36,725 bases of DNA, from contig WRJM01000005.1 of the NCBI GenBank assembly GCA_009782265.1, positions 1 through 36,725 on the forward strand, read 5' to 3'. Origin of the DNA: Oscillospiraceae bacterium (lineage in GTDB: Bacteria; Bacillota; Clostridia; Oscillospirales; Ruminococcaceae). Within the stretch, counting starts at the first letter, position 1. The number at the start of each line of letters is the position of its first letter. The notes under the pieces were generated by a model. That model did not search any database, was not told the DNA's origin, and saw nothing but the letters and a program-made list of their open reading frames with translations. Positions 19,245-29,716 of this stretch are shown piece by piece. The position numbers and the translations under genes were made by a program.

Positions 19245-21020
19245 ATGGCATTAACAAACAACCAAAACGTATTAAACTGGGTCGAGGAAATGAAGTCCTT
19301 GACAAAACCCGACAATGTCGTCTGGATTGACGGAAGCGAAGGGCAAATCGCAGAGCTTCAGAAACAGGCAATCGACTTGGACATCATCAAACCCTTGAAT
19401 CAGGAAAAACTCCCCGGCTGTTATATTCACCGCACCGCGCTGAACGACGTTGCGCGTGTGGAACACAGAACCTTCATCTGCTCAAAAAAAGAAGAAGACG
19501 CAGGTCCTACCAACAACTGGTGCGCGCCCGACGAAATGTACGGCAAATTAAAAGCCTTGTTCGACGGCGTAATGAAAGGGCGCGTCATGTATGTCATTCC
19601 GTTCTGCATGGGACCTATCGGCTCAAAGCTGAGCAAAGTCGGCGTGGAAATTACCGACTCGATTTACGTTGTGCTGAACATGGTTATTATGGCGAGATGC
19701 GGGCAAGCGGCGGCAGACTTCCTCGGCGACAGCAACGACTTTGTGCGCGGACTGCACTCTACCGGTCAGCTTGACGATGAAAAACGCTACATCTGCCACT
19801 TCCCCGAAGACAATGCGATTTGGTCAATTAACTCCGGCTACGGCGGAAACGTGCTTCTCGGTAAAAAATGCTTTGCACTCCGCATTGCGTCCAATCAGGG
19901 CAAAAACGAAGGTTGGATGGCAGAGCATATGCTCATTCTCGGTATAGAAGACCCCAAAGGTGAGGTTACATATATCGCCGCCGCTTTCCCGTCGGCGTGC
20001 GGAAAAACAAATTTGGCAATGCTGATTCCTCCCGAAGGTTATCAGAAAAAAGGTTATAAAGTATGGTGCGTGGGCGACGACATCGCATGGCTCAGGCAGG
20101 GCGACGACGGGCGTTTATGGGCGATTAACCCCGAAACCGGATTTTTCGGTGTTGCACCGGGTACAAACATGAAGTCCAATCCCAATGCGCTTAAAGCAAC
20201 CCAAAAGAACACAATTTTCGCCAATGTTGTGCATAAATTAAACGATAATACCGTATGGTGGGAGGGGCTTGACAAAGAACCCGTTACCAACGCGCTCAAC
20301 TGGAAAGGTGAACCTTGGACAAGCGAAAGCAAAGAACCCGGCGCGCACCCCAACGGACGCTTCACCTCCCACGTGTCCAACTGCCCCTGCATTTCCAAGG
20401 AATACGATAACCCGACAGGTGTTCCGATTTCCGCGCTTGTTTTCGGCGGCAGACGGGCAAAAACTGCGCCTTTGGTGTATCAGGCGTTTAACTGGGAACA
20501 CGGCGTATTTGTAGGTTCAATTATGGGTTCTGAAACGACTTCTGCGGCTATCGGACTTGCGGCAGGTGTAAGGCGCGACCCGATGGCAATGCTGCCTTTC
20601 TGCGGTTATCACATGGGCGATTATTTTGCTCATTGGCTTGAAACGGGTAAAAAATTAGGGGATAAAGCACCGAAAATTTTCAACGTCAACTGGTTCAGAA
20701 CAGATGACAACGGCAAGTTCATTTGGCCCGGTTACGGCGATAATATGCGGGTGCTTGACTGGATGGTACAGCGTTGTAAAGGCAATGCCGACGCAGTTGA
20801 AACCCCTATCGGCTACGAACCGAAGCCTGAGGATATTAACATTGAGGGGCTTGAAAACGACGGAATTACCGCAAGCGTTGTCGAAAACCTGCTCAGCGTT
20901 GATAAAGACCTTTGGAAAGAAGAGGTTGCGGGAACGAAAGAGTTCTATGCAAAATTCGGCGATAAAATGCCGGCAGAATTAAAAGCACAGCTTGCCGCGC
21001 TTGAAGAAAGATTAGGTTAA
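19245..21020 (+). CDS. pckA: Phosphoenolpyruvate carboxykinase (GTP)
   Basis: This enzyme interconverts oxaloacetate and PEP using GTP/GDP. In anaerobes it often runs in the PEP-carboxylating direction or in gluconeogenesis. The 591-residue protein matches the GTP-dependent class: WCAPDEMYGKLKALFDG, MYVIPFCMGPIGS, a GGNVLLGKKCFALRIAS segment, the kinase P-loop FPSACGKTN with the reactive Cys near residue 252, VGDDIAWL with metal-binding Asp, and FVGSIMGSETTSAA. Length is typical. The ribosome binding site is GAAAGGGG. It is monocistronic by appearance, with its own promoter, a structured leader and a strong terminator 15 bases past the stop. Confidence 0.96.
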   Translation: MALTNNQNVLNWVEEMKSLTKPDNVVWIDGSEGQIAELQKQAIDLDIIKPLNQEKLPGCYIHRTALNDVARVEHRTFICSKKEEDAGPTNNWCAPDEMYGKLKALFDGVMKGRVMYVIPFCMGPIGSKLSKVGVEITDSIYVVLNMVIMARCGQAAADFLGDSNDFVRGLHSTGQLDDEKRYICHFPEDNAIWSINSGYGGNVLLGKKCFALRIASNQGKNEGWMAEHMLILGIEDPKGEVTYIAAAFPSACGKTNLAMLIPPEGYQKKGYKVWCVGDDIAWLRQGDDGRLWAINPETGFFGVAPGTNMKSNPNALKATQKNTIFANVVHKLNDNTVWWEGLDKEPVTNALNWKGEPWTSESKEPGAHPNGRFTSHVSNCPCISKEYDNPTGVPISALVFGGRRAKTAPLVYQAFNWEHGVFVGSIMGSETTSAAIGLAAGVRRDPMAMLPFCGYHMGDYFAHWLETGKKLGDKAPKIFNVNWFRTDDNGKFIWPGYGDNMRVLDWMVQRCKGNADAVETPIGYEPKPEDINIEGLENDGITASVVENLLSVDKDLWKEEVAGTKEFYAKFGDKMPAELKAQLAALEERLG

Positions 21021-21033
21021 TAGAATAAAATAT

Positions 21034-21165
21034 AAAAAATCCCCGCTTCTTGCAAAGCGGGGATTTTTGTTTTAGGATAAGAACATCGAAAGCCGCCCGT
21101 AGGCAGCTTTCATTAAAAAAGTATTCCCGAATATATGCCGTAACATATACCCACTATAAATATCT
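21034..21165 (-). ncRNA. Candidate small RNA, ~132 nt, three hairpins
   Basis: A perfect TTGACA-N17-TATAAT promoter on the minus strand points into DNA with no plausible ORF and ends at a strong terminator ~132 nt later. The transcript would fold into GUAUAUG-loop-CAUAUAU, then the 10-bp stem GAAAGCUGCC-UACG-GGCGGCUUUC with a stable C(UACG)G tetraloop, then the terminator hairpin. Both internal stems contain a position that is G-U on the minus strand but A-C on the plus strand, so the structure is specific to the minus transcript. The AT-rich spacer between the stems includes a U-run, which could be single-stranded for target pairing. I could not match it to 6S RNA, SRP RNA or another family I know. 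Its function is unknown. Confidence 0.6.
21035..21068. terminator. Bidirectional terminator shared by pckA and a minus-strand RNA
   Basis: A 14-bp stem (AAAAATCCCCGCTT with its complement) and six-base loop are flanked by T-runs in both directions, so it can end pckA on the plus strand and the candidate small RNA on the minus strand. Confidence 0.9.
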
Positions 21166-21171
21166 GATAAC

Positions 21172-21200
21172 ATTATAGCATAAATAGTATCGGTTGTCAA
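21172..21200 (-). promoter_or_regulatory. Perfect consensus sigma-A promoter for the small RNA
   Basis: On the minus strand TTGACA, exactly 17 bases and TATAAT match the full consensus. The -35 begins one base after the stop codon of the MazF-like gene. It points away from that gene and towards the pckA terminator. Confidence 0.85.
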
Positions 21201-21860
21201 CTATAAATACATACAAAATATATTTTGCCAATAATTTATTATCTCGGATTTTATTTCATTTAACTTTTTCTTATGGATATTTCCGATTTTATTGTTTAAA
21301 TCAATCCTGTATATGCTTATTGGTTTTATCCTTGTTATGTCGGTATATCTATCTCGTATTTCAAAATCATATACTTTAGACACATCTATCTGACGATTAT
21401 TATTCGGGTCTTTTATACCGGATGTAAGCGGAGCGACAATAAGACATTCACCAAGATTTTTTAATATTACAGCAGGATGGAATCCGCCAAACTCTCGACC
21501 AATATTGAAACCAAAACTAACCCAAACAACGTTACCGGAAATTAAAATCATATTTTTTAATAAATATAGGGCATCAGTATAATTAATATTAATCTTTTTC
21601 TTAATATAAGCAGAACCTTGTTGATAATAATATTTATGTAATATCCCTTTATGTTTATTATATTCAAAAGCAGATATTTTGTTTTTGAATATATTTTGTG
21701 GAATTTCCAAAGGATTGGCTTCCTTACGATAAAAAATATTCTGTTCCTTTTGCCATTCTAAATATTTTATTATTTTATCAATTTTAGCGGTATCAGTAGG
21801 ATTTATACAGTTAATAATATCCATAATTTCTTTGGTAGCTCTAAAATATTCCCTATACAA
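21201..21860 (-). CDS. MazF/PemK-like protein with long N-terminal extension
   Basis: The C-terminal half of this 219-residue protein has the MazF/PemK pattern: GNVVWVSFGFNIGREFGGFHPAVIL, then LIVAPLTSG and a late ITRIKPISIYRID strand pair. Proteins of this fold are usually sequence-specific mRNA endoribonuclease toxins. The first ~95 residues form a Lys-rich helical extension not found in compact MazF. No antitoxin gene of the MazE type is adjacent on either side. The ORF starts with TTG (21860) behind GAGGTG; the next ATG codon (MDIINCINP) has a poor ribosome binding site. AT-rich composition and an own promoter suggest acquisition. The ToxN class of RNA-neutralised toxins is an alternative to consider, given the small RNA next to it. 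Confidence 0.72.
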   Translation of the reverse strand: MYREYFRATKEIMDIINCINPTDTAKIDKIIKYLEWQKEQNIFYRKEANPLEIPQNIFKNKISAFEYNKHKGILHKYYYQQGSAYIKKKININYTDALYLLKNMILISGNVVWVSFGFNIGREFGGFHPAVILKNLGECLIVAPLTSGIKDPNNNRQIDVSKVYDFEIRDRYTDITRIKPISIYRIDLNNKIGNIHKKKLNEIKSEIINYWQNIFCMYL

Positions 21861-21897: not shown

Positions 21898-21926
21898 ATT
21901 ATATCATATTTTATCAAAAATTGCAA
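21898..21926 (-). promoter_or_regulatory. Sigma-A promoter for the MazF-like gene
   Basis: Minus-strand TTGCAA, 17 bases and TATAAT lie about 37 bases before the TTG start. Confidence 0.75.
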
Positions 21927-21947: not shown

Positions 21948-21983
21948 AAAAATCCCCGTTTCAACCGAAACGGGGATTTTTTA
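21948..21983. terminator. Terminator after the chemoreceptor gene
   Basis: AAATCCCCGTTTC and GAAACGGGGATTTTT form a 13-bp or longer stem with a four-base loop. T-runs on both sides make it usable in both directions. It ends the minus-strand chemoreceptor mRNA. Confidence 0.88.
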
Positions 21984-21996
21984 TATATATTATACT

Positions 21997-24026: not shown

Positions 24027-24055
24027 TTGACAATTACATTTATTTATAGTATAAT
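24027..24055 (+). promoter_or_regulatory. Perfect consensus sigma-A promoter of the pilin operon
   Basis: TTGACA, exactly 17 bases and TATAAT match the full consensus. Predicted transcription starts near 24062, leaving a ~90-base leader containing the palindrome CCGCATATGCGG. I tested the leader by eye for a c-di-GMP-I riboswitch and saw no match. Confidence 0.85.
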
Positions 24056-24151
24056 GATTATAAGTATCAGTTGTTGAACCGCATATGCGGGATTTTGACA
24101 GCTGTTAAAACTATCAGATTTGCCGTATTATGCCTTCGGAGGGGTTTGACT

Positions 24152-27100
24152 ATGAAAAAATTTCATCATTTACATAGTGTAAGGAGAAATAAGCAAGCCG
24201 GTTTTACAATGGTTGAAGTGCTTGTTGTTATTGCGATTATCGGTATTCTTGCCGCCATTATTATGCCGATTATGACGGGTATGCTGAACCGTAGCAGACA
24301 GACCAGTCGCGAAAATACGGCAAGAACCCTGTATGTATCGGTGCAGAACCAGCTTACTAAAAGCATGCTGGAAAAAAATATCATGTCAACAGTGACGGGA
24401 TTTTTCTATGAACCTGACCCGTCGAACCCCGGTGAGTTTTTAAAAAATGCTGACGGCACTTATCAATTGAACACTCATAATGTTGTAAAAACCGAATTAG
24501 ACAATAACGGCGGAACTTTTCCTGCGGACGAGGTGCTTAACGGAAACGAGGATAATGTCCGGTACATAAGCAAGCCTGCCGATTACAGACCCGAAAACGA
24601 CCCCGACCCCAACGAAAACGAAACCAAGGCTTTATACAGAATCCTGCTGAACGGTTTTATTGAAAGAGAAGTATTGGACTGCGCGATTCTGATAGAGTTT
24701 AATGTCCGCACCGGATTGGTTATGTCCATCTTTTACGGAAATGCTGACCAAACAGAGTTTATATACGACGACATTGCTGATAACGACATCAATAACGTCA
24801 CCGGCTTGCGCGGCATGGATTATTTAGATACAGCCATTGCCCGCAGGCAGGGTTATTACGGCGCGGAAACCACCGGTGTTCCGCTTCCGCCTTTAAGCAG
24901 GGACGAAAATATTGTTAATATTTATGACGGAGCGGTTTATCCGCTGTTTACCTCTGCCGGCGTTAAGACAAACGTGCTTTATGCTGAGTTTTTATTATTA
25001 GAAGAAGCCGTCATGCCTTCTTATGAATTTAAATTGGTTGAAGCTGACACGGGAATTAATATTCCGGGTACAACACAAATCGTTGACCTCAGTACTGTAC
25101 CGACGAGCTTTACATTAAACGCGTCCGGACCTTCTATTTATCAGGATATTCTTAACCCGATTGAATTAGGCGGAGAAGATGTAAGCGATATATTCAACAG
25201 ATATATCTGGATTATTGATATAGCCGAGGGCGATATGTCCGCCGGAGAGGCTTTTGTGCACAGTATAGGCGATAAATACGGGATTACATGGGCGCAGAAT
25301 GTCCGTGTTTATTCGCTGAGGGACGGAAGCGATGAGGGCAATACTTCTCATACAGAAGCCAACACGCTCTTTTCCCGCGAGTTAGCTACCGATGAGTATG
25401 AAATTATATCGGCAAGGCACTTGAACAATATCCGTTTCCTGCCTGCCGACACATACAGGCAGAGAAAAGACATTGATATGAAACCGGCGTTCCATGAAAT
25501 TACTAATTTCGCACCCATAGAAAATTTCTGCGGAAGCTATTCCGGCATGAAAGGCTTTGCTGACCAGTATGTAATTGAAAACCTTGCAATAAGCGTAACA
25601 TCCGGCGACGGCGGGCTGTTCTCGGATAACAACGGTGTGATTCAGGGGCTTACCGTTTCCGGCGCGGATATAAAAGGTACAAACTGCGGCGTGATTGCCG
25701 CGGCGAATTCAGGTACAATCAGTAAAGTGAACGTCATAGATTCCAAAATCAGCGGACAAAGCGCGAGCGGGAACGCCGGCGGGATTACCGGCATAAATCA
25801 GCCCGGCGCGGAAATCAAGGACGTCTGCGTTATAGAGTTGAGTATATTAAACATGGCTGACAGCGCGGGCGGTATTGCCGGCAGAAACTACGGCGTCATT
25901 TCGTGCGCCGGCGTTGAAGAGTCCGAAATCAAATGCGTAGGTATAAATATAGGCGGTATCGCAGGCTACAACGAAGCCGGTGCGGAAATTAAGGACGTTT
26001 ATTTCCTCTCAACAAATTCTGTGGACTTAGCTTCAATCCCGATTGCGTCCAACGGCGGCGGCATTGTCGGGCAAAACAACGGCTTGATTACGGTTGCGTT
26101 TTACTTAGCGCCCGCGCCTTTTGACCCGGTTTCAGCGAATTATTATCCGATTGTGCGCAGCGGCGACCCCGGCGGGATTTTCGACGGTGCAAAATATACC
26201 GGCTGTTTCTTCTTAGCCGGCTATAAATATTCCACAACTTCGGGAATTTCATGGCCCACAACAAACCTCTATTACAACTGCTCTCCCGATGAATTCCATA
26301 TTTTCAACGGAAACACGGAAAACAACTGCACGTCCATGACTACAGATTTCATGGATAAAGAATGGATAAACTATGTTTACGGGCGCGAGCCTATTCCAAT
26401 CGGCGATGTATGTCCCGACTGCGGTAAAGACCCCTTAGACGAAAATGACCCCTGCGACTGTATCTACGTCAATCTTTCAAACTGGATACATGAGGGCAGT
26501 TATCCTTATCCTGTTTTAAGAACTTTAAAAACACCTGTAAAATGGGCAGAAGCCGCCAGCTCAAGAGACCAGAAAGAGAACGAAAATTTCGGAAAAGAGC
26601 TTAGCGAAGGGAATAAGGTAAAATCCGTAGATTTTAAAAACGGTGCTTTTAATCTGCCTTTCCAATACCCTACCGCTCCGATTTACCGTGATTTTTATAC
26701 GAACACAGATAACGGAAGCGGCAACTGGCTGGTTCAAAAACCCACGCCTTACCCGAGCGTTGACCCCGGCGTAACCGGTGCGGCATGGATGGGCGGAAGA
26801 ACTTTCTGGGTATATTTCAATCAGGATTATATTCAAGGCTGGCAAACCAGACCGGTTGACGGTACTTATACCTGTGTCCGTCCCAGCGGTGTGACTCGAT
26901 GCGCATACTATCCGACCGGCACAATGCCCAGCAATCATACCCATAACTCGTTTGAAAACAAATTCGGGGACAACACGAGGTCTAACGCCCATAACAGCAC
27001 TGACCACGGAATCGGTCAGTTTACATGGGAAGCAATCGAATATCAGCGTCCGAGCAATACCGCCGCTGACAGCCGTGCCCGTATTAATTATAACGGCAAA

Positions 27101-29716
27101 TATAATACAGGGGATACGGCATACGTTGAGCTTAACGCGGAGCTTGAAAGCACGATGTATCAGGTTTGTACAACCAGTCCGGGGCAAAGCTTCTATTACT
27201 CTTTCCACCACCTCACAAGAACCAACGGCACAAATAACCCCGGAGAGAAAATGAGCTTTTATCTCTCCCTCATCCCTACAGACCAAAATGAGCTGGTTAA
27301 AAACCAAGAGCAGCTTGCCGCACGCGACGCCGAGCTTGTGCTTATCAGACCCTGCTGGTCTCCCCGTTCACAGCCGGGCTCTAACCCCTCCGTAACGAAC
27401 GCCGCAAGCTACGCCCAAAACTCCCGTTTTTATAACCCTATCGCGGCAAATACCGTTGCATACGGAAATACTTATGTAGGAAGCCTTTATAAATATTGGA
27501 ACGATAAACCGGAATTTAATCAACTTGAAGGTCAGCCGCTTTCCGCGCAATGCAACTGGGGTACTAACCCTTACATCTATGATGTATGGATAGGGACTGC
27601 CGGAGCAGGAGACACCGGCACAAGAAGCGGTTTCGGCGTTACTTTCTGGTCAAATACGAATATTACGGCATTAAATTCAACCTCACACACCGGATTTGCT
27701 ACTCTTGACGCACTTTATCTTACCGCTCCGCAGGCAAAAACAAATACTTTCGCTTATTGGACGATTAATTACGGCTGGAAGAATTATTACGGTCAATATA
27801 CCGCTCCCACCAACCCCGGCGCGGAATATATCACCGTTGAGGGAACTTCAGTAACTACAAGAACCGAATTTGCTTTCCAGTCAAATACAAACAACCCTAC
27901 ACAGGGTAACTACTTAGCGGGTATAGACTTTAAAGCGCCTTCGTTCTTAACCGTCGGTAAATCCTTTAAGGATGAAAACGGAGATACTGCTTCCTTTGCG
28001 GAAGGCGGCGATTCTATAACCGTTGAACTGACCGTAAAAAACCTCGGTGAAGTGCCTGTTGATAATATTGTTATCACCGATAGGCTTGACCCCTACCATG
28101 AATATTTTGATTATATAGGGAATGTTACTGTAAAAAAAGGTAATTCAACTATACCCTTTACCTTAGGACCTGCGCCCGCCGACGTAAACTTATGGACTTT
28201 AACAGTTGACCTCAAAACTTATGACGAAGAAGGTGACGTAGATGAGAATGAAACGCTGGCTAAAGGCGAAACCATTACCGTTACATTTGAAATTAAAATT
28301 CGCGAGACCTGCCGGAGTGATTACAGTTTACCCACGCTGTTCTTCTATATTAAAAATCAGGGGAAGGTAACTTTTAAAGAAACAGAGTTCCGCAATCAGT
28401 ACCGCGACACAACTGAAGCTCAGCTTTATAACTATTCAAAAGTTGAAAAATTAAGCATATCCCCTGTAGAACTCGTTAAAACAGTGAGCCCGAGCATCAA
28501 CGGTCCGTTTGAGGTTACGCTTACGATTAAAAATGCATCGACAAGCGGCGAAGTCAGAAAAGGCTTTTTCACCGATAACATTCAACCCGGGTTCAGAATA
28601 TCGCAGGTAAAGCGCGACGGGGTATTGCTCGACAGCAGTAGTTTTTCGCGGGACGGCGATTCGCGTATTTCCGTTAAAAATATAGAACTTAATTCCGGAG
28701 AGACCACCACGATTACGTATAGGCTGGAATATTCCGGTCCGGGTTACGGAGCTTCAAATGCTTCCTATGATAAATATCCCGATTTCCGGTTTATCTATAC
28801 CGGCTCGGGTATTACGGAGGATGCAAAAGACTCATTCCCGCCGCAAGCGGTAGGATTTACCGTTAAAGTTCCCGCCGTCCCCGATGATTTCTATATAGAC
28901 GGTAATGATATGTTAAACATTACGCGTAAATCTAATTTCCACGCCGGTAACGCATTAGTTGCCGCCGGTTACACTTTGGAGTCCGAAGTAATGCTGTGCG
29001 ACCCTGCCGGAAATGTTCTTCCGTTCGGCGACAACGGTAAAGACGTAAACGGGCACTATATTGCGGATTATCCGGATTTCTTCGCACGTTTGAATAAAGC
29101 TACCAACTTGGTAGAGTTTGAGCCGAAAACCGCAACCGATTCCACTTTCTTACTGCACTATAGAATAAAACTGACCGCAATTTCAGAAAAAACCACAGAA
29201 GACGACGATTATAATATTGTGCTTAATTCTCCTGTGGCAACGGTAACAATCCACTACGTAACCGACACGCTGGTGTACTACGAGCAGTATGACGACGGAG
29301 AATTCAGTTACGGCTTTTACGCAGGACCGGGCGTTTCTGTTCCGAGAGTTTTACAGAACGAAGAAATCATAGAGAGCGGGTATGCTGTTCTCAGCGCAAG
29401 CGAAATTTCCTTCCCGGGTTACAGTTCGCCTTATGTGAACGGCTTATATGTGAATATTGTCAGCAAAAGCGACGAGCCGGCAGATAATTTAAGCTTAGTC
29501 TCTGTAATGTTTAAAGGCGACCTTATCGGAAAATACCACCCGAACTTTGCTAAAGCGCTGTATTCGCCAACTGCGGACAATGCAGGAAATACCTTTATTA
29601 TCCGTTCATTCCAGCAATTATCGAATATTTTGAAGTTAGAAGAAGGCGGATTAGACACGACTACGCTAACCTTTACACCTGAAAACGGCATGGACCCCTT
29701 TATGCCGCCGCCATAA
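24152..29716 (+). CDS. Giant prepilin-type adhesin (1854 aa)
   Basis: The protein starts with a short basic leader and a class III prepilin signal: cleavage is predicted after Gly17 in QAG/FTMVEVLVVIAIIGIL, with Glu at +5. Such signals need a PilD-type peptidase. The pilin stalk (about 18-90) is followed by a mixed region, then GLUG-like beta repeats at about 480-650 (GTISKVNVIDSKISG, GGITGINQPGAEIKDV, GGIAGYNEAGAEIKDV). A Cys module CPDCGKDPLDENDPCDC lies near 755. A large Trp/Tyr-rich domain at about 830-1265 is unrecognised. Two DUF11-like Ig-type repeats (about 1267-1390 and 1436-1540, with VELTVKNLGEVPVDNIVITDRLDP) precede a C-terminal region ending in MPPP. I choose the ATG after GGAGGGG; the ORF-track start is 81 bases longer. 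It probably sits at a pilus tip or on the surface as an adhesin. Confidence 0.85.
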   Translation: MKKFHHLHSVRRNKQAGFTMVEVLVVIAIIGILAAIIMPIMTGMLNRSRQTSRENTARTLYVSVQNQLTKSMLEKNIMSTVTGFFYEPDPSNPGEFLKNADGTYQLNTHNVVKTELDNNGGTFPADEVLNGNEDNVRYISKPADYRPENDPDPNENETKALYRILLNGFIEREVLDCAILIEFNVRTGLVMSIFYGNADQTEFIYDDIADNDINNVTGLRGMDYLDTAIARRQGYYGAETTGVPLPPLSRDENIVNIYDGAVYPLFTSAGVKTNVLYAEFLLLEEAVMPSYEFKLVEADTGINIPGTTQIVDLSTVPTSFTLNASGPSIYQDILNPIELGGEDVSDIFNRYIWIIDIAEGDMSAGEAFVHSIGDKYGITWAQNVRVYSLRDGSDEGNTSHTEANTLFSRELATDEYEIISARHLNNIRFLPADTYRQRKDIDMKPAFHEITNFAPIENFCGSYSGMKGFADQYVIENLAISVTSGDGGLFSDNNGVIQGLTVSGADIKGTNCGVIAAANSGTISKVNVIDSKISGQSASGNAGGITGINQPGAEIKDVCVIELSILNMADSAGGIAGRNYGVISCAGVEESEIKCVGINIGGIAGYNEAGAEIKDVYFLSTNSVDLASIPIASNGGGIVGQNNGLITVAFYLAPAPFDPVSANYYPIVRSGDPGGIFDGAKYTGCFFLAGYKYSTTSGISWPTTNLYYNCSPDEFHIFNGNTENNCTSMTTDFMDKEWINYVYGREPIPIGDVCPDCGKDPLDENDPCDCIYVNLSNWIHEGSYPYPVLRTLKTPVKWAEAASSRDQKENENFGKELSEGNKVKSVDFKNGAFNLPFQYPTAPIYRDFYTNTDNGSGNWLVQKPTPYPSVDPGVTGAAWMGGRTFWVYFNQDYIQGWQTRPVDGTYTCVRPSGVTRCAYYPTGTMPSNHTHNSFENKFGDNTRSNAHNSTDHGIGQFTWEAIEYQRPSNTAADSRARINYNGKYNTGDTAYVELNAELESTMYQVCTTSPGQSFYYSFHHLTRTNGTNNPGEKMSFYLSLIPTDQNELVKNQEQLAARDAELVLIRPCWSPRSQPGSNPSVTNAASYAQNSRFYNPIAANTVAYGNTYVGSLYKYWNDKPEFNQLEGQPLSAQCNWGTNPYIYDVWIGTAGAGDTGTRSGFGVTFWSNTNITALNSTSHTGFATLDALYLTAPQAKTNTFAYWTINYGWKNYYGQYTAPTNPGAEYITVEGTSVTTRTEFAFQSNTNNPTQGNYLAGIDFKAPSFLTVGKSFKDENGDTASFAEGGDSITVELTVKNLGEVPVDNIVITDRLDPYHEYFDYIGNVTVKKGNSTIPFTLGPAPADVNLWTLTVDLKTYDEEGDVDENETLAKGETITVTFEIKIRETCRSDYSLPTLFFYIKNQGKVTFKETEFRNQYRDTTEAQLYNYSKVEKLSISPVELVKTVSPSINGPFEVTLTIKNASTSGEVRKGFFTDNIQPGFRISQVKRDGVLLDSSSFSRDGDSRISVKNIELNSGETTTITYRLEYSGPGYGASNASYDKYPDFRFIYTGSGITEDAKDSFPPQAVGFTVKVPAVPDDFYIDGNDMLNITRKSNFHAGNALVAAGYTLESEVMLCDPAGNVLPFGDNGKDVNGHYIADYPDFFARLNKATNLVEFEPKTATDSTFLLHYRIKLTAISEKTTEDDDYNIVLNSPVATVTIHYVTDTLVYYEQYDDGEFSYGFYAGPGVSVPRVLQNEEIIESGYAVLSASEISFPGYSSPYVNGLYVNIVSKSDEPADNLSLVSVMFKGDLIGKYHPNFAKALYSPTADNAGNTFIIRSFQQLSNILKLEEGGLDTTTLTFTPENGMDPFMPPP

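Follow-up and report, generated by a model that had tools for sequence, protein, structure and literature searches.

A predicted hairpin RNA with its promoter at the stop codon of a solo PemK/MazF-family gene is probably an RNA antitoxin

The window, a stretch of 36,725 nucleotides from an Oscillospiraceae bacterium (contig WRJM01000005.1), carries pckA on the plus strand (19245 to 21020; PF00821/PF17297), which encodes a GTP-type PEP carboxykinase. Convergent with pckA, on the minus strand, is a solo PemK/MazF-family gene for a protein of 219 amino acids (21201 to 21860; PF02452), with a TTG start and a TAG stop at 21203 to 21201. A candidate promoter for this gene, TTGCAA-N17-TATAAT with 10 of 12 consensus positions, can be read from the sequence at 21898 to 21926 on the minus strand. 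No small gene was found upstream or downstream of the PemK-family gene in the window, and no antitoxin gene adjoins it. Between the stop codon and pckA lies a predicted small RNA on the same strand as the PemK-family gene, and at the other edge is the terminator stem of an upstream chemotaxis receptor gene (21948 to 21986), recognized by its DNA match to the pckA terminator. The pckA terminator on one side and that of the chemotaxis receptor gene on the other bound an interval that the PemK-family gene and the RNA take up together, and the two read as one inserted module with pckA outside it.

The promoter of the small RNA (21172 to 21200, minus strand; TTGACAACCGATACTATTTATGCTATAAT) is a perfect TTGACA-N17-TATAAT with 12 of 12 positions and an extended -10, and its -35 box abuts the stop codon of the PemK/MazF-family gene. 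A preliminary description of this DNA had found the same promoter, the promoter stands, and the predicted small RNA looks real; what it had overlooked is the contact with the PemK/MazF-family stop codon, and its framing of the RNA by pckA is not supported. Dinucleotide-shuffled versions of the window yielded no perfect TTGACA-N17-TATAAT, and a single further copy occurs in the window, at 24027 to 24055 on the plus strand. That second promoter closely precedes the start of a very long open frame (24071 to 29716) with a type IV pilin-like N terminus, GFTMVEVLVVIAIIGILAA.

The predicted RNA runs from about 21165 to 21034 on the minus strand, and its proposed identity as an RNA antitoxin draws on promoter, fold, terminator, and family architecture. 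The minus strand folds at -51.6 kcal/mol (z score, -6.7; -3.4 without the terminator), and the plus strand folds at -38.3 kcal/mol. Hairpin unit 1 (21129 to 21152; GGGUAUAUGU-UACG-GCAUAUAUUC) and hairpin unit 2 (21088 to 21111; GAAAGCUGCC-UACG-GGCGGCUUUC) are each 24 nucleotides long with 10 bp; they are equal in length and loop, differ in their stems, and follow one another with a period of 41 nucleotides. Three G-U pairs in hairpin 1 and one in hairpin 2 become A-C on the plus strand. The terminator (21035 to 21068) has 15 bp, and the same inverted repeat terminates pckA on the plus strand. The preliminary description was thus accurate on an RNA of roughly this size (132 nucleotides in that prediction, about 130 in ours) with hairpins and a strong terminator, on stems that keep their G-U pairs on the minus strand only, and on a 3' end formed by the bidirectional pckA terminator; the UACG tetraloop that it saw in one stem is present in both hairpins.

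The RNA could not previously be assigned to a family, and an Rfam scan likewise gave no family at the gathering threshold. Matches at permissive E values were to hairpin-terminator families and reflect chance only. As a DNA query against plasmids, phages, IMG/VR, and GTDB contigs, the RNA found no homologue, and the idea that it is a relocated resistance gene leader was dropped for that reason. A direct-repeat test on the RNA was not significant (P = 1.0), its two units sharing only size and loop. Position, promoter, fold, and family architecture are the grounds on which the window RNA is assigned. We conclude that an undescribed small RNA at 21165 to 21034 on the minus strand is well supported.

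The protein encoded by the adjoining gene matches PF02452 (PemK_toxin; E value, 5.7e-9) behind an N-terminal extension of about 108 amino acids, and it also matches PHROG 1936/1412. Single-sequence structure prediction gave a mean pLDDT of 36, too low to be of use. Among solved structures, the PemK domain best matches EndoA of B. subtilis. The Thr at a catalytic position of EndoA is kept in the family, and the catalytic Arg of MazF is His in most members; the catalytic positions are those generally given for MazF. As the Arg is mostly His, ribonuclease activity of the family is not assured. Current annotations call proteins of the family a lone "type II toxin" and in some cases "antitoxin mazE-like." The latter is the name of PHROG 1412, which was matched by all nine members of alignment A1, each with a PemK toxin domain, and the name looks to be wrong and to have spread into phage annotations. 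In Geobacillus virus E3, a second, shorter PemK-like gene lies about 700 bp downstream of the long one (L094, 2397 to 2738) and adjoins a putative immunity gene.

Whether the arrangement recurs was surveyed with homologues of the PemK-family protein from genome samples of the order, class, and phylum, from plasmids, from phage records, and from IMG/VR, clustered at 60% identity into 43 clusters; they came from genomes, plasmids, and temperate phages of Staphylococcus and Streptococcus. All of the first eight downstream regions had a near-consensus promoter on the same strand near the toxin stop, and the loci after these eight served as tests of the pattern. Of the 43 clusters, 39 had a promoter with at least 9 of 12 consensus positions that overlapped or closely followed the toxin stop, 32 matched at least 10 of 12 positions, and 10 had a perfect 12; the remaining 4 had no good promoter there, and one locus, L061, seems to lack the RNA. 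At the same site, a promoter of at least 10 of 12 was present in 5% of 320 other open reading frames and in 10% of 104 AT-rich ones. It was present in 12% of 17 shorter MazF-type genes (15 of the 17 had none), in 3% of cases on the opposite strand at the same place, and in 0% at 200 to 290 nucleotides downstream. Among 41 family loci, 8 had a perfect promoter between -30 and +80 relative to the stop, versus 1 of 331 others. The P values reach 1e-18 and are to be taken as "very strong" rather than literally, since open reading frames that share a locus are partly dependent on one another. The pattern also holds at loci collected once it had been proposed, both L104 to L107 and all six of L207 to L212. 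We conclude that a PemK-family gene, a promoter on its stop codon, a short hairpin RNA, and a terminator form an arrangement conserved across Bacillota and their phages and plasmids.

The RNAs of the family are noncoding and about 75 to 165 nucleotides long, mostly with two or three hairpins, typically two tandem units, followed by a terminator; the script that delimited them mischose the terminator at a few loci and in the window took hairpin 2. Many are visible tandem repeats in which the stems differ by compensating changes, as in phage 92 (ACAAGCCGCTGAAATATTTGCGGC and ACAAGTCGCTGAAATATTTGCGAC) and phage K13 (GGAG-UUUAG-CUCC-AUAA and GGAU-UUUAG-AUCC-AUAA). Direct repeats were significant (P ≤ 0.01) at 34% of 41 family loci versus 0 of 17 MazF-type and 0 of 76 other loci. 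Hairpins with a YWWRS pentaloop numbered 0.50 per family locus versus 0.05 in shuffles and 0.05 at other loci, a descriptive comparison given that the pattern was derived from the data. In one Staphylococcus phage from IMG/VR, L198, three copies of a 38-nucleotide RNA repeat follow the PemK-family gene, and its relatives have two. Read from the sequence, this is a change of repeat number in the proposed antitoxin RNA.

Covariation could be followed in one subgroup. The proteins of L207 to L212, from IMG/VR, are 42 to 48% identical to that of L060, and their RNAs align with those of L060 and Streptococcus phage Javan166. In this alignment of eight RNAs, 80 of 80 cells pair, two-sided changes occur in 6 of 12 pairs, and one-sided changes occur in none, versus 17 to 55% paired in slid controls; the structure was written by hand on the same sequences, which favors the percentage paired and, to a lesser degree, the two-sided changes. 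When the Streptococcus sequence was left out of a covariance model, the model still recovered the RNA of the Streptococcus phage (E value, 1e-6), and it also found the RNA of L048 (E value, 0.016); both lie immediately after the toxin gene. What can be read in the sequences themselves comprises the genes, their linkage, the position of the promoter, the tandem hairpin units, the covariation of the subgroup, and the extra repeat of L198.

Toxins of type III toxin-antitoxin systems share the MazF/Kid fold, and tandem-repeat RNAs neutralize them (PMC5086642). The likeness of the pair to these systems extends to a short tandem-repeat RNA with a Rho-independent terminator beside a MazF/Kid-fold toxin and to occurrence on plasmids, phages, and Bacillota chromosomes (PMC5086642). 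In type III systems (ToxIN/AbiQ, CptIN, and TenpIN), however, a single promoter is followed by the RNA, a terminator, and then the toxin (PMC5086642), whereas the RNA of the PemK family lies downstream of the toxin with a promoter of its own, and its toxin partner, extended at the N terminus, belongs to PF02452. All nine members scanned match PF02452, and none of the nine matches a type III model. Against solved structures, the A1 profile matched MazF/PemK and no ToxN, AbiQ, or CptN chain up to an E value of 0.1. Nor does it match the TenpIN toxin of pSK41, which itself matches NF047358. That locus served as a control (L110, 3337 to 4397) and is arranged in the classic way: three RNA repeats, nearly perfect, precede the toxin gene; its toxin is annotated merely as a hypothetical protein. 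Tandem repetition of the RNA as in type III is found across the family, the units of the window RNA having in common their size and loop only. By analogy, the PemK-RNA pair would work like a type III system, yet it belongs to no described family, because the PF02452 toxin matches no type III model or structure, the gene order is reversed, and the promoter is separate.

Two further systems invite comparison. The RNA RCd22 of a C. difficile prophage is 100 to 130 nucleotides long, with two motif copies, a SigA promoter, and a terminator, and it lies upstream of and is cotranscribed with abiF (PMC12373285). This phage-encoded, antitoxin-like noncoding RNA resembles the PemK-associated RNAs in these features, but it is placed upstream, and AbiF is unrelated to the PemK family. 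Pfam scans of the family gave no match to Abi_2, and Rfam gave no abiF RNA motif at threshold. With MazEF/PemIK (type II), the pair shares the PF02452 toxin domain and EndoA as the best structure match. The PemK-family locus, however, has no MazE/PemI-like partner, encodes a longer protein, and has a promoter and an RNA gene at the toxin stop, features of which the promoter is missing from most of the shorter MazF-type genes surveyed above. Among the neighbors inspected, no protein antitoxin is common to the family loci; the toxin genes sit next to rep genes (plasmids of B. subtilis and Natranaerobius), phage repressors, a recombinase or integrase, or unrelated genes. As far as the sequences tell, it is the RNA, and not any protein, that travels with the toxin. 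Finally, a literature search, with preprints and most subscription papers outside its scope, returned no PemK-family toxin with a downstream RNA.

We consider it likely that the RNA at 21165 to 21034 is the RNA half of a two-part module and that the solo PemK/MazF-family gene immediately upstream encodes the protein half. The RNA is probably the antidote of a PemK-fold toxin, a role favored by analogy with type III systems and with the AbiF RNA. We infer transcription, toxicity, binding, neutralization, and the biological role of the module as follows. The strong housekeeping promoter on the toxin stop codon would keep the two-hairpin RNA at a high level, and the hairpins would bind the PemK-fold ribonuclease and block it, possibly after the toxin has cut the RNA into units. 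If the element were lost, or if a phage shut off host transcription, the RNA would decay and the toxin would be freed. Beyond the window, we think it rather probable that the module represents an unrecognized and widespread class in which PemK/MazF-family ribonucleases are neutralized by a tandem-hairpin RNA encoded directly downstream with its own promoter. The carriers of such a class would be common prophages of Staphylococcus and Streptococcus (between repressor and integrase), small plasmids of Gram-positive bacteria, and genomes of Clostridia, again with reasonable probability. If so, many PemK/MazF-family toxins may seem to lack an antitoxin because annotation pipelines miss the RNA antidote. 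RNA-neutralized toxins would also gain a gene order and a toxin family that are new to them, and type II and type III systems would be bridged through one fold. The hypotheses that follow, on prophage and plasmid maintenance and on phage defense, would be directly testable in well-studied bacteria, and many more pairs could be sought computationally by inspecting orphan toxin genes at their stop codons.

The RNA might instead control the PemK-family gene at the RNA level, either as a type I-like antisense RNA or as a 3' untranslated region that attenuates or stabilizes the toxin mRNA. There is no terminator between the toxin gene and the RNA, and therefore the toxin mRNA would read into the hairpins. 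Pairing of the RNA with the start of its own toxin, however, was no better than with the starts of other toxins (mean rank, 0.47), and a position on the same strand is unlike that of a cis-antisense RNA. Protein binding is a better fit to units that are repeated in tandem, keep their loops, and vary in their stems. We regard control at the RNA level as unlikely. A strong promoter and a stable fold, taken by themselves, leave the role of the RNA unspecified, and it could be a small RNA in its own right, acting in trans on unrelated targets and simply carried along with the PemK gene. This is quite improbable, as the RNA accompanies a single protein family in dozens of backgrounds that are not related to one another, and its sequence varies while its architecture stays constant. 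Linkage to one family together with a constant architecture implies a joint function.

Encoding of a short peptide, such as a protein antitoxin, is very improbable. The preliminary description was nearly right in finding no usable open reading frame, although an ATG frame of 24 codons does exist inside the window RNA (21146 to 21072), with a ribosome-binding site that is not convincing. The RNAs of the family have no conserved reading frame, and in only 2 of 31 does a ribosome-binding site accompany a frame of 8 codons or more. The conservation of the loops and the compensatory changes in the stems point to function as RNA.

An effect on pckA, whether through convergent transcription or through antisense regulation of its 3' end, would suit an RNA that faces pckA and shares its terminator. 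In the pckA regions of 29 congeners, however, the flanking sequence differs and the window RNA is absent (about 10 of the loci were reversed, so that the upstream flank was shown). The RNA is also absent from the downstream regions of the two congeners closest by pckA (83% and 82% identity), and a DNA search of 59 relatives with the RNA body gave no convincing match beyond the terminator stem. The PemK-family gene is itself missing from nearly all congeners, and homologous modules adjoin quite different genes. The link to pckA proposed earlier is hence incidental: the RNA is absent at pckA in congeners and has little DNA match in relatives, and it is an accessory element that landed beside pckA, for which a role in pckA control is highly doubtful. 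Conservation in close relatives, the lack of which had been put forward as a refutation, was not found, but that test addresses the wrong neighbor, pckA instead of the PemK gene. Last, the window RNA has no direct sequence homologue and might be no more than a chance resemblance to a promoter, followed by two accidental hairpins, where a mobile gene in decay ends, but with a perfect promoter, so low a fold z score, and the same layout in nearly all clusters, chance is the least credible account of all.

The family RNAs yielded some smaller observations. In L207 to L211, AAUGAAUAC near the RNA start, in the -10 region, is complementary to GUAUUCAUU after unit 2, and L060 has matching changes in both (GGAUAC/GUAUCC), although the 5' half is expected to lie mostly upstream of the transcription start. 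In L098 after position 2244 and in L051 after 2380, one toxin gene seems to be followed by two RNA units in succession, both of which have hairpins and a terminator. An Rfam scan of the window and 40 loci matched no family RNA at the gathering threshold and returned only tRNAs, a traJ-II, and, on the opposite strand, Spy779816. The last of these, a small RNA of S. pyogenes, was matched at 2046 to 2132 of L092 and at 2524 to 2609 of L098, both on the minus strand, and in these streptococcal phages it is flanked by the proposed antitoxin RNA on one side and the integrase gene on the other.
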